Source: Lewinella cohaerens DSM 23179 (GTDB taxonomy: Bacteria; Bacteroidota; Bacteroidia; Chitinophagales; Saprospiraceae). Taken from it: a stretch of DNA of 51,970 nucleotides. Within the stretch, counting starts at the first letter, position 1; each line of letters starts with the position of its first letter. This document shows positions 36,265 through 40,545 of this stretch, in pieces. The DNA is taken from positions 249,077-301,046 of the forward strand of contig NZ_KB903554.1 of assembly GCF_000379805.1 (NCBI RefSeq), written 5' to 3'. The position numbers and the translations under genes are program-made. A model generated the notes under the pieces. The model did not search any database. It was not told where the DNA came from and saw only the letters and a list, made by a program, of their open reading frames with translations.

Positions 36265-36678
36265 TTATGCTAAAATCTCATACGACCAGGTAATGTCTAC
36301 CGACTTTTCCAGCATCATAGAAACGGAGCATAATTTCTCCATGCTGAGACGGCACGCACGCTCAGCCTTTTTCTCATCAAGGTCACCAAAGAGCTTGTAG
36401 TGAACGTGGATGGCTTTAAAAACTTTGGGGGTAGTATCCACTCGTTCGCCATTAAGCTCAATCTTGATGTCACGTAGAGGTTGGCGCTGCTTATTGAGTA
36501 AGTAGATAATATCGATACTGCTACAGCTACCTAGCGCGGCCAACACCATCTGCATGGGGCGCATCGCAAGGTTATGGCCACCAATTTCAGGAGATCCATC
36601 CGTATGTACGGTGAGCCCATCTTCGTTGCTCGCCTGCATATGGTAGGCATCGTCTAATCTTTCTAAGGTAACTTTCAT
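36265..36678 (-). CDS. OsmC-family protein
   Basis: This 137-residue protein follows the OsmC/Ohr pattern: GSPEIGGHNLAMRPMQMVLA, then LGSCSSIDIIYLLNK with the first redox Cys, and RACRLSMEKLCSVSMMLEKS with the second Cys. OsmC proteins reduce organic hydroperoxides with two cysteines in a homodimer. The length is normal. It lies between a convergent membrane protein and the sulfur-assimilation leader, on the other strand from metY. Cytoplasmic. Confidence 0.85.
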   Translation of the reverse strand: MKVTLERLDDAYHMQASNEDGLTVHTDGSPEIGGHNLAMRPMQMVLAALGSCSSIDIIYLLNKQRQPLRDIKIELNGERVDTTPKVFKAIHVHYKLFGDLDEKKAERACRLSMEKLCSVSMMLEKSVDITWSYEILA

Positions 36679-36778: not shown

Positions 36779-36809
36779 TTGACTTTTACATTCCACTCCT
36801 TTACATTTG
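36779..36809 (+). promoter_or_regulatory. Bacteroidota promoter of the metY-metX leader
   Basis: TTG (36779-36781) and TACATTTG (36802-36809, exact TAnnTTTG) are separated by 20 bases, the usual spacing. The predicted transcript starts near 36815, about 23 bases before the first paired base of the riboswitch. This is the best-supported promoter in the window. Bases 36679-36778 hold nothing else. Confidence 0.75.
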
Positions 36810-36837: not shown

Positions 36838-36957
36838 GATTTTATACCGAAGGGTTGAGAGATCGGGCTCAATGAAACCCTGGCAACCTTGCTTCCCCTG
36901 AAGCAAAAGGTGCCAATCCCGCCGCCTCAGCGTATTGCTGAGGGGAAATATAAAATC
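36838..36957 (+). promoter_or_regulatory. S-box (SAM-I) riboswitch
   Basis: The closing stem P1 is formed by GATTTTATA (36838-36846) and TATAAAATC (36949-36957). Inside, GGGTTGAGAGATCGGGCTCA and ATGAAACCCTGGCAACC are the conserved core of SAM-I (with the kink-turn pair and the AACC bulge), followed by AAGGTGCCAATCCC, the P3-P4 junction, and a hairpin CCTCAGC-gtatt-GCTGAGG. Such aptamers bind S-adenosylmethionine and, when bound, lower expression of downstream methionine genes. It sits upstream of metY. The expression platform may be downstream (37069-37143). Confidence 0.9.
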
Positions 36958-36965
36958 GGGATACA

Positions 36966-37064
36966 ATGAATCATTTTTCGGCCTCAGCGCCACTTCCAAT
37001 TTTCTCTTTCCGTTCCATTGTCGAACAGCCTGCTATGATAGCATGCTGCTGTTGTTGCTGTTAA
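36966..37064 (+). CDS. Leader peptide ending in six cysteines (attenuator candidate)
   Basis: This 32-codon frame starts with ATG nine bases after the riboswitch and ends MIA followed by six Cys codons (TGC TGC TGT TGT TGC TGT, 37044-37061) and TAA. A run of six Cys directly before the stop is the pattern of amino-acid-responsive leader peptides (compare His runs in hisL, Phe in pheL), and polycysteine leaders act as cysteine attenuators in mycobacteria. The stem AACAGC (37024-37029) / GCTGTT (37048-37053), with TGCTAT/ATAGCA inside, would be melted by a ribosome stalled on the Cys codons. The metY-metX genes, which make homocysteine, follow. The protein has no homology that I can recognise; start and function are inferred. 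Confidence 0.75.
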   Translation: MNHFSASAPLPIFSFRSIVEQPAMIACCCCCC

Positions 37065-37068
37065 TTCC

Positions 37069-37143
37069 GTCCTGCGTATACAGGAGGGCTTTAGTTGTTT
37101 ACCCCAAAAGGTAGTTGCTACTATTGTCTTCTCTATGCAGGAC
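37069..37143 (+). promoter_or_regulatory. Alternative RNA pairings between leader peptide and metY
   Basis: CCTG-cgtata-CAGG (37071-37084) is a local hairpin followed by the U-rich TTTAGTTGTTT. The same left arm, GTCCTGCGTA (37069-37078), can instead pair with TATGCAGGAC (37134-37143), bracketing small hairpins such as TACC/GGTA (37100-37113). The two states exclude each other, as expected for an attenuator. Whether either works as a terminator is not clear; the U-tract is weak. Confidence 0.5.
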
Positions 37144-37178: not shown

Positions 37179-38498
<1,320 letters not shown>

Positions 38499-38625: not shown

Positions 38626-39723
38626 ATGCAGTATTTGCATTTCGATCAACCTTTCACCTTGGAATCTGGCGAGCAGCTTCCTCGGATCACGATAACGTAC
38701 CAAACATTTGGCACGCTCCATCCTGCAAAGGACAATGTGGTATGGGTATGCCATGCACTTACCGGAAATAGCAACCCCTTGGAATGGTGGCCCGGACTGG
38801 TTGGCAAAGGGGAAACCATTGACCCTGATCGGCATTTCATCGTTTGTGCCAACATTTTGGGTTCTTGTTACGGCAGCACAGGGCCTGATGATTGGCGCCC
38901 TGGAACAACAACATCTTACGGCTTGGATTTCCCTAAAATCACCACCAGGGATTTAGCCAAAGCCCATGAATTGCTCGCCATACATCTGGAGATTAATCAA
39001 ATACAGCTGGGAATTGGCGGCTCTTTAGGGGGGCAACAGTTGGTAGAATGGGCTGTGTTGTTTCCCCAGCGGTTTCGCCACCTATGCTTACTAGCGACCA
39101 ATGCCCGCCACTCTCCTTGGGGGATTGCCTTTAATGAAGCGCAAAGAATGGCCATGCAAGCTGATGCCAGCTTTGACGACGGTACCAAGGAAGGCGGGCG
39201 CAAAGGCTTGGCTACTGCCCGTGCTATTGCGATGCTTTCTTATCGGCATTATCAAACCTATGACAATAGCCAGGCAGAAACAGATGATAATAAAACAGAT
39301 AATTTCCGCGCCAGCAGTTACCAGCAATACCAAGGTGAAAAATTCTGGCGCAGGTTCAGTCCTCAATCTTATTGGGTACTCAGTAAAGCCATGGATGCAC
39401 ATAATGTAGGGCGTGGGCGCGGCAATGTCGCTAAAGCCTTAGGAAGTGTCACCGCAAAAACACTTGTTATTGGCATTGATAGCGACCTGCTTTTCCCCGT
39501 CGCTGAACAATCAGAATTAGCCGAACACATTCCAGAAGCGCGTTTTGAAGTCATTAACAGTGATTTTGGTCATGATGGCTTTTTGACCGAAACCAAGGCC
39601 ATCAGTAACTTGTTATATGACTTTATGCAAGGTGCATTAATTGGAAGAACCGCTTCGCCAAGGTTGCGAAAAAACGTCGCCTTCAAACAGAACCTTGTTC
39701 TTCCTGGCAGTGAAAGTTTCTAG
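38626..39723 (+). CDS. metX: Homoserine O-acetyltransferase
   Basis: This 365-residue alpha/beta-hydrolase-fold enzyme transfers an acetyl group from acetyl-CoA to L-homoserine, making the substrate of MetY. YQTFGTLHPAKDNVVWVCHA, CANILGSCYGSTGP and GGSLGGQQLVEW are family motifs; Ser133 in GIGGSLGG is the nucleophile. IDSDLLFPV and FGHDGFL carry the catalytic Asp and His. Length is normal. The 127-bp gap after metY contains inverted repeats (CATAAGG 38512-38518 / CCTTATG 38572-38578; AAGGGA/TCCCTT followed by T's), so part of the transcripts may end before metX. The gene ends directly in a REPIN-like element. Some relatives use succinyl-CoA; that is not distinguished here. Confidence 0.92.
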   Translation: MQYLHFDQPFTLESGEQLPRITITYQTFGTLHPAKDNVVWVCHALTGNSNPLEWWPGLVGKGETIDPDRHFIVCANILGSCYGSTGPDDWRPGTTTSYGLDFPKITTRDLAKAHELLAIHLEINQIQLGIGGSLGGQQLVEWAVLFPQRFRHLCLLATNARHSPWGIAFNEAQRMAMQADASFDDGTKEGGRKGLATARAIAMLSYRHYQTYDNSQAETDDNKTDNFRASSYQQYQGEKFWRRFSPQSYWVLSKAMDAHNVGRGRGNVAKALGSVTAKTLVIGIDSDLLFPVAEQSELAEHIPEARFEVINSDFGHDGFLTETKAISNLLYDFMQGALIGRTASPRLRKNVAFKQNLVLPGSESF

Positions 39724-39906: not shown

Positions 39907-40545
39907 ATGTCTTTACGATTAGGGGACAGTGCTCCCAACTTCAAAGCAGCAACCACCCAGGGAGAAATTGATTTCTACGATTGGGCTGGTGACAACTGGG
40001 TTGTTTTTTATTCTCACCCAGCAGATTTCACGCCTGTTTGTACAACCGAATTGGGTCGTACAGCAGCACTTAAAGAAGAATTTGCAAAACGAGGTGTAAA
40101 ACCCATCGCGCTCAGTGTTGATCCTCTTACTGATCACCACGAGTGGATCAAGGATATTGAAGAAACACAGGAAGTGAAGATGAACTTCCCCGTCATCGCA
40201 GATCATGACCGTAAAGTTGCAGAACTCTACGATATGATCCACCCAAATGCGACGACCAAGGTGACTGTGCGTTCTGTATTTGTGATTGACCCCAACAAGA
40301 AGGTTCGTCTAACCCTGACCTACCCTCCTAGTACTGGCCGTAATTTCCATGAGATCTTACGAGTTATTGATTCCTTACAGTTAACGGATAACTACAGTGT
40401 AGCTACCCCTGTTGATTGGGAACACGGACAAGATGTGGTGATCTCACCTAGCATTGCAGATGCTGATATTCCTGCGAAATTCCCCAAAGGACATACCAAG
40501 ATCAAGCCTTACCTACGGACTACGCCACAACCTAATATTGACTAA
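39907..40545 (+). CDS. 1-Cys peroxiredoxin (Prx6 type)
   Basis: This 212-residue cytoplasmic enzyme reduces hydrogen peroxide and organic peroxides. The motif HPADFTPVCTTELG contains the peroxidatic Cys45 in the P-x3-T-x2-C arrangement. The C-terminal half (PSTGRNFHEILRVIDSLQLT, then VATPVDWEHGQDVVI) matches the long 1-Cys Prx6 group rather than the shorter 2-Cys enzymes; no second conserved Cys is seen. It is probably reduced by an external thiol. A strong terminator follows. It sits close to OsmC and the metY operon but on its own promoter. Confidence 0.92.
   Translation: MSLRLGDSAPNFKAATTQGEIDFYDWAGDNWVVFYSHPADFTPVCTTELGRTAALKEEFAKRGVKPIALSVDPLTDHHEWIKDIEETQEVKMNFPVIADHDRKVAELYDMIHPNATTKVTVRSVFVIDPNKKVRLTLTYPPSTGRNFHEILRVIDSLQLTDNYSVATPVDWEHGQDVVISPSIADADIPAKFPKGHTKIKPYLRTTPQPNID

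Follow-up and report, generated by a model that had tools for sequence, protein, structure and literature searches.

A short open reading frame ending in six cysteine codons lies between a SAM riboswitch and the metY gene of Lewinella cohaerens DSM 23179, and the question that this locus raises is whether the frame is a leader through which cysteine, in addition to SAM, is reported to the gene behind it. From the comparison of related loci, we propose that, in these Bacteroidota, SAM and cysteine are probably both sensed by a single RNA leader.

Organization of the metY leader in Lewinella cohaerens

The window analysed here is a stretch of 51,970 nt, in which all features described below are on the forward strand unless stated otherwise. 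The SAM-I (S-box) riboswitch aptamer at 36839-36956 is a full-length covariance-model match to RF00162 (74.6 bits against a gathering threshold of 44.4 bits, model positions 1-108). Nothing else in the window reaches the gathering score of an Rfam family, so that there is no T-box match, and no second RF00162 match was found in this genome. The leader frame (36966-37064) starts with an ATG 9 nt 3' of the aptamer and consists of 32 codons and a TAA stop (37062-37064); its translation, MNHFSASAPLPIFSFRSIVEQPAMIACCCCCC, ends in six Cys codons, TGC TGC TGT TGT TGC TGT (37044-37061). The Rfam match and the translation bear out the initial annotation, which had described a SAM riboswitch, an ATG nine bases further on and a 32-codon frame with six cysteines before TAA. 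Further downstream, metY (37179-38498) encodes an O-acetylhomoserine/O-acetylserine sulfhydrylase (TIGR01326, 666.5 bits, cut-off 495.1) and is followed by a metX-like homoserine O-acetyltransferase gene (38626-39723) that exceeds the cut-off of NF001209 (333.1 bits against 331) and stays under that of TIGR01392 (352.4 bits against 500). The locus has the layout of a leader-peptide attenuator, in which a biosynthetic gene is preceded by a short frame with repeated codons for an amino acid of its pathway.

Upstream of the aptamer, TTG (36779-36781) and TACATTTG (36802-36809) can be read directly from the letters. The Bacteroidota promoter consensus is TTG ... TAnnTTTG, and by this consensus the element spanning 36779-36809 looks like a promoter of the Bacteroidota type. 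An OsmC-like gene (PF02566) is located at 36265-36678 on the reverse strand, divergent from the riboswitch.

Two hairpins are predicted around the end of the leader. One of them (37026-37048, minimum-energy fold only) extends into the first Cys codons; the other, a long hairpin found by folding the gap, begins 4 nt past the leader stop (37069-37143), with no U-tract directly 3' of it in the window sequence. The 114-nt gap between the leader and metY folds with -35.6 kcal/mol, corresponding to a z-score of -4.12 against 200 dinucleotide shuffles.

The 32-aa peptide has no Pfam or NCBIfam match and, used as a protein query against 395 genomes, retrieved only itself, so related loci were located through metY and RF00162.

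Conservation of the leader frame and its cysteine codons

In a sample of 20 close-relative genomes, including that of L. cohaerens, RF00162 was found in 15. Seven of the 15 RF00162 loci (again including that of L. cohaerens) carry, on the riboswitch strand, a frame of 27-37 codons with an ATG 9-14 nt past the aptamer and a Cys-rich end, and in all seven cases the gene that follows is a metY of one and the same type. The remaining eight riboswitches, located 5' of other genes or of distant paralogues, have no such Cys-ended frame. Apart from a same-genus pair (L001 and L007), the seven peptides are barely alike upstream of the Cys run.

A broader set was obtained with four metY protein queries, one genome being kept per species, and consists of the best 80 of 582 metY matches. 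An Rfam scan found RF00162 upstream of metY in 75 of these 80 loci; the five loci without a riboswitch (L032, L033, L041, L056 and L057, the last with short upstream DNA) have no Cys-tailed frame either. All 75 riboswitch-bearing loci contain an ATG frame of 13-57 codons 3' of the aptamer, at a spacing of 6-11 nt in 73 of them, 5 nt in one and 21 nt in one; given that the frame was picked as the one of at least 12 codons with its ATG closest to position +9, the presence of a frame is partly selected, but its Cys content is not. The distance between leader and metY reaches 598-692 nt in three loci (L026, L058 and L085), and in two of these a 145-aa frame that is OsmC-like by eye (L026:1509-1946 and L058:1549-1986) is inserted between them.

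At least four Cys are present in the last 12 codons of 58 of the 75 leaders, and at least three in the last 15 codons of 63. Cysteine accounts for 358 of the 900 residues of the last 12 codons (39.8%) vs 2.6% in the body of the peptides, and is crowded into the last eight codons. Methionine follows the same tendency, with 87 of the 900 tail residues vs 1.3% in the body and at least one Met, start excluded, in the last 15 codons of 64 of the 75 leaders. Of the other ATG frames in these loci, 41 on the leader strand and 102 on the opposite one, none has four Cys in the last 12 codons.

The initial annotation had stressed that random frames of this size almost never end in this way. This holds for frames, given 0 of 143 control frames vs 58 of 75 leaders, but not for the run as such, since bare TGY runs are common. 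In the L. cohaerens genome, five consecutive TGY codons are matched 18 times, partly overlapping; among seven other such places inspected (L156-L162), L160 alone has an in-frame ATG ahead of the run, which is there part of a long open frame (95 codons). A search of 248 genomes for four TGY codons followed by a stop gave 30 loci, 20 of them with a true stop, and only one of these 20 (L270) has an in-frame ATG before the run, so this pattern was rejected as too unspecific for finding further Cys leaders. With TGY repeats so common without an in-frame ATG, the run alone is unremarkable, and it is the frame and its position that count. Chance or artefact, to which the abundance of TGY repeats in these genomes lends whatever plausibility it has, is thus a practically negligible explanation of the tail enrichment, the uniform spacing and the contrast with the control frames.

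For the codon comparison, 16 pairs of related leaders were chosen, with one locus used twice. Among 93 Cys codons, 67 are unchanged, 11 carry silent changes and 15 non-silent ones; outside Cys and Met, 142 of 209 changed codons are non-synonymous, and by this measure the leader body looks weakly constrained. Conservation of the regulatory codons with drift of the rest of the peptide is the pattern of an attenuator, and eight Sphingobacterium isolates depart from it. The opposite outcome, a riboswitch retained while the Cys frame decays, which would have spoken against the initial annotation, is not what most relatives display: the frame, its distance from the aptamer and its Cys-rich end recur in genera that we take, partly from general knowledge, to belong to Saprospirales, Cytophagales and Sphingobacteriales. 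It is very probable that the leader end is under conservation and that its TGY codons are read as Cys.

In 12 of the 75 leaders, the last 15 codons include no more than two Cys, namely in those of the eight Sphingobacterium isolates, an Algoriphagus (L096), a Spirosoma (L093), a Pontibacter (L067) and a Saprospiraceae MAG (L018), the last of which ends in CC. The eight Sphingobacterium leaders (L035, L043, L051, L069, L078, L080, L092 and L094) have kept the position and lost the Cys run; they end in Arg-Met-Arg, encoded by CGA ATG CGN TAG, with CGA in 8 of 8. The leader peptide of L214 likewise ends in Arg-Met-Arg, the CGA ATG (Arg-Met) pair is combined with Cys in leaders of Hymenobacter and of some Pontibacter, and the leader of a Sphingobacterium thalpophilum MAG (L084) has four Cys. 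In the eight isolates, either the cysteine input has been lost or the Arg-Met motif has a role of its own.

Nested and serial arrangements

Among 13 metY loci of 68-74.9% identity, ten have a terminator, i.e., a hairpin followed by a U-tract, immediately 3' of the aptamer, and all ten belong to family f9, a sister family within the order of the window organism which we take to be Chitinophagaceae. In five of them (L097, L102, L114, L119 and L243), a Cys/Met leader is found 96-281 nt downstream of the terminator-bearing riboswitch; no Cys/Met leader was found in the other five (L111, L248, L251, L253 and L255). In this serial arrangement the riboswitch would act on transcription.

The terminator is found within 130 nt of the aptamer in only 2 of the 75 loci of the nested type, in which the leader start lies next to the aptamer, and in none of 12 metY loci of at least 74.9% identity. 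Elsewhere it is present in 28 of 36 metY-paralogue loci, 19 of 41 metY loci below 68% identity, 3 of 25 metH-like loci and 2 of 15 metX loci, and this rarity at metH-like and metX means that its absence alone proves nothing for the nested loci. It is the absence of a terminator together with the tight spacing that suggests an action of the nested riboswitch on leader translation. SAM-I riboswitches can act on translation, with the ribosome-binding site in the 3' side of P1, in examples presented in one report (PMC2258182).

Predicted RNA structure around the leader and the gap

In the set of 75 loci, the gap between leader and metY folds beyond dinucleotide shuffles (mean z -1.19, with 27 loci below -1.5 and none above 1.5; z from -4.7 to -0.1 in ten loci), and the leader body does not stand out (mean z 0.02, n = 71, with 8 below -1.5 and 4 above 1.5). 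Analysis in 45-nt windows places the folding excess from 60 nt 5' of the leader stop (mean z -0.71), fading about 80 nt past it. Pairing of the Cys tail with the gap is slightly above chance (mean z -0.58, 19 of 75 below -1.5 and one above 1.5). Terminator-like hairpins in the gap were found in 15 of the 75 loci, vs 5.6 in shuffles, and a universal intrinsic terminator 3' of the leader was rejected given that candidates exist in these 15 loci only.

Consensus folding of seven clade sets with RNAalifold gave a strong structure only for Pedobacter (-16.9 kcal/mol), weaker ones for Hymenobacter (-8.9), Pontibacter/Rufibacter (-5.9) and the Chryseolinea-like set (-3.4 kcal/mol), and values near zero for Mucilaginibacter, Sphingobacterium and Saprospiraceae. 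With six of the seven sets weak or near zero, we do not claim one common gap structure. In the 13 Pedobacter loci, three predicted helices pair in 98.2% of the cells, and 11 cells carry two-sided changes, all of them in helix 3, in related sequences and with a structure that was itself obtained from this alignment. Cys codons are framed by the first helix, and some Pedobacter Met codons sit inside a conserved hairpin and may be RNA-driven. Taken as predictions, these folds make an RNA switch behind the leader likely, and the clades seem to differ in the form that it takes.

A model for two-stage sulfur sensing and its alternatives

The reading that we favour, and regard as moderately probable, is a leader-peptide attenuator for cysteine, and perhaps for methionine too, whose start codon is gated by the SAM riboswitch just upstream. 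The metY transcript would accordingly open with a two-stage sulfur sensor. The first stage would be the SAM-I riboswitch, the closing helix P1 of which ends 6-11 nt before the leader start in 73 of 75 loci; judging by this spacing, P1 of the SAM-bound form would lie within the ribosome footprint and block initiation at the leader. The second stage would be the leader itself, with C-terminal Cys codons, usually joined by Met, before the stop and with structured RNA behind it. When charged tRNA-Cys (perhaps also tRNA-Met) is scarce, stalling of the ribosome within the run would alter the folding or protection of the downstream RNA and thereby allow metY to be expressed; with good charging, or with the leader left untranslated at high SAM, metY would be off. 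The output could be either transcription termination or metY translation, and Rho-dependent termination is considered because canonical terminators are mostly absent.

Translation of the leader, stalling and the direction of the response are all inferred from sequence, and the parts of the model deserve unequal trust. That the leader senses cysteine through the position of the ribosome appears likely, and that low cysteine switches metY on, rather likely; for gating of the leader start by the riboswitch we have only a slight preference. Given the enrichment of Met codons, cysteine is perhaps not the sole amino acid read, although sensing of Met must be viewed as tentative. Equally tentative is the extended version in which the leader start codon is the only output of the nested riboswitch and the leader reads the charging of both tRNA-Cys and tRNA-Met, i.e., a three-input gate for SAM, Cys and Met.

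The gating step would be dispensable if the two sensors were independent and worked in series, the riboswitch controlling transcription and the Cys leader controlling metY separately, with the tight spacing being incidental. The five f9 loci with a terminator between aptamer and leader have just such a layout, and a Cys leader without an S-box (L297) agrees with it as well. It is nevertheless unlikely to apply to the nested loci, considering the scarcity of terminators next to their aptamers and the concentration of start codons at a distance where P1 would overlap the initiating ribosome. The nature of the signal could also be different. If the nascent C-terminus (CMCCC, RMR and the like) acted as an arrest peptide, the ribosome would stall on a small molecule rather than for want of charged tRNA; the Arg-Met-Arg ends of the eight Sphingobacterium leaders and L214 and the joint presence of Arg-Met and Cys in Hymenobacter and some Pontibacter fit this idea, but the Cys run is variable in length and broken by unrelated residues, for which codon counting is the better account, so we consider an arrest peptide quite improbable.

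Two further explanations deny the run its role as codons. The TGY repeat might be an RNA element that pairs with downstream RNA and is not read as cysteine, the frame being incidental; it is very improbable that this is so, even with the 19 loci where the tail pairs with the gap better than shuffles and with CAGCAACA or a similar sequence 3' of the run in several Cytophagales loci, because Cys-ended frames are far commoner than among controls, the run is read in the Leu frame by an ATG frame in 4 of 75 loci and in the third frame in 13, and the interruptions preserve the Cys frame, with a stop close behind. Alternatively, the peptide could be functional in itself, in binding of metals or sulfide or as a precursor from which a modified peptide is made. 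Tails rich in Cys are able to bind metals, but conservation is mainly in the tail, with a weakly constrained body, the window peptide lacks any family match and the leader is found mostly before metY; we give this explanation even less weight than a pairing element.

Relation to known systems

In open-licence full texts, we found no account of a SAM riboswitch followed by a Cys leader, most subscription papers being outside the scope of the search. Canestrari and colleagues (2020) reportedly described leaderless short open reading frames encoding polycysteine as cysteine-responsive attenuators of operons in mycobacteria. As far as that account is available, the mycobacterial frames and the present ones share a short frame with a Cys run, whereas here the frame is not leaderless but 3' of a 118-nt SAM-I aptamer, the phylum is another one and Met codons are often added. 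Tandem SAM-I/T-box leaders likewise place a SAM aptamer and then a sensor of tRNA charging before metX/metY, with NOT A AND B logic; there the second sensor is an RNA, the T-box for tRNA-Met, unlike the putative translated Cys-codon leader proposed here.

Control of a small upstream frame by a riboswitch has also been described. The Mbox of M. tuberculosis controls such a frame, with Rho-dependent termination (PMC12810186), and an interplay between a B12 riboswitch and an upstream frame has been reported (PMC11260477); in both, as would be the case here, translation of the small upstream frame is controlled by the riboswitch, but in the relevant parts of these papers the frames are not presented as amino acid sensors. 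The uORFC-8-2 motif before cysS in Rhodobacterales is an upstream frame with Cys codons for which ribosome-mediated attenuation was proposed (PMC8632094); it differs in having two Cys codons, a U-run terminator and cysS as its target, and no riboswitch is mentioned in the passages of that report concerned with it. In direct translational SAM-I riboswitches, the start codon is just past P1 as it is here, but it is the ribosome-binding site of the regulated gene that is sequestered, at least in the portion of that work devoted to them (PMC2258182), and here the start codon is that of the leader peptide. For Bacteroidota, transcriptome papers refer to leader-peptide attenuation or short upstream frames in general terms (PMC9723704, PMC7366714).

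The leader would bring together two well-known RNA controls, metabolite sensing by a riboswitch and attenuation by a leader peptide, and many Bacteroidota repeat this arrangement in front of metY. If the extended version is true, the three-input gate extends over genera from no fewer than three Bacteroidota orders, stands before a sulfate-assimilation operon in one genome and has a serial counterpart in a sister family. Loci with the leader alone, the riboswitch alone and the nested and serial combinations form a natural series for studying the evolution of two-input RNA logic, and the predictions are open to reporter tests in Pedobacter, Mucilaginibacter or Pontibacter.

Genes behind the riboswitch and the cysteine leader

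The association with metY was assessed in a non-random collection of 174 riboswitch loci (15 close-relative loci, 59 from wider searches and 100 hand-picked for diversity among the matches listed), in which some loci repeat named ones (L009/L017, L231/L023 and L232/L018) and genes were classed by eye except for metY, metX and OsmC. With a Cys-tailed frame defined as one with three or more Cys among its last ten codons, 17 of the 174 loci have one, 15 of 66 before metY and 2 of 108 before other genes, so most riboswitches of the phylum examined here lack a Cys leader. An ATG frame of 12-70 codons located 5-14 nt past the aptamer is present in 16 of 66 metY loci vs 9 of 108 others. No Cys-tailed frame was found at riboswitches before metH-like genes (0 of 25), metX (0 of 15), metY paralogues of 31-50% identity (0 of 36), CoA-binding protein genes (0 of 7) or homoserine-dehydrogenase-like genes (0 of 6).

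In one of the two cases before other genes (L230/L293), the riboswitch and a leader, MQATIFNSAFFAPKSASTSNLISPVKVRCCCCCCC, are followed by cysH, cysD, cysN, a uroporphyrinogen methyltransferase gene (cobA) and cysJ. In the other (L260/L294), the Cys leader precedes a gene just under the cut-off of an OsmC-related family (86.6 vs 95 bits; OsmC-like, L294:664-1194). A survey of CysH-like genes, in which 30 loci of 37 places were inspected and five were scanned with Rfam, recovered the former locus (L295, identical to L230) as the only one of the 30 with a riboswitch and a Cys leader. A second locus (L297) has the leader MRRIRHDDLFKHAHGCCCCCCCR before cysH (PF01507), and its Rfam scan gave no match. 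These two single cysH loci, one with a riboswitch and one without, lend support to the proposed cysteine sensor. Three further matches (L311, L321 and L322) are unlike leaders, and 24 of the 30 loci have no Cys leader, including the CysH locus of L. cohaerens itself (L300), which has neither a riboswitch nor a Cys leader. In L310, two consecutive short frames with five Cys in a row each are located 5' of a CysH-like gene, and no riboswitch motif was seen.

Several other riboswitch loci have features of their own. A long gene, not a leader, has its start codon 9-13 nt past the riboswitch in L010, L235 and L238, a spacing near that of the leaders, which suggests that the riboswitch may control translation of these genes directly. 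An OsmC-like gene begins 56-78 nt past the riboswitch in L003 and L101, and the riboswitch of L213 precedes a gene that is peroxiredoxin-like by eye and resembles the AhpC/TSA gene located behind metX in the window (39907-40545). In L061, two SAM-I riboswitches (L061:55-166 and 1607-1723) are found on one strand about 1.5 kb apart.
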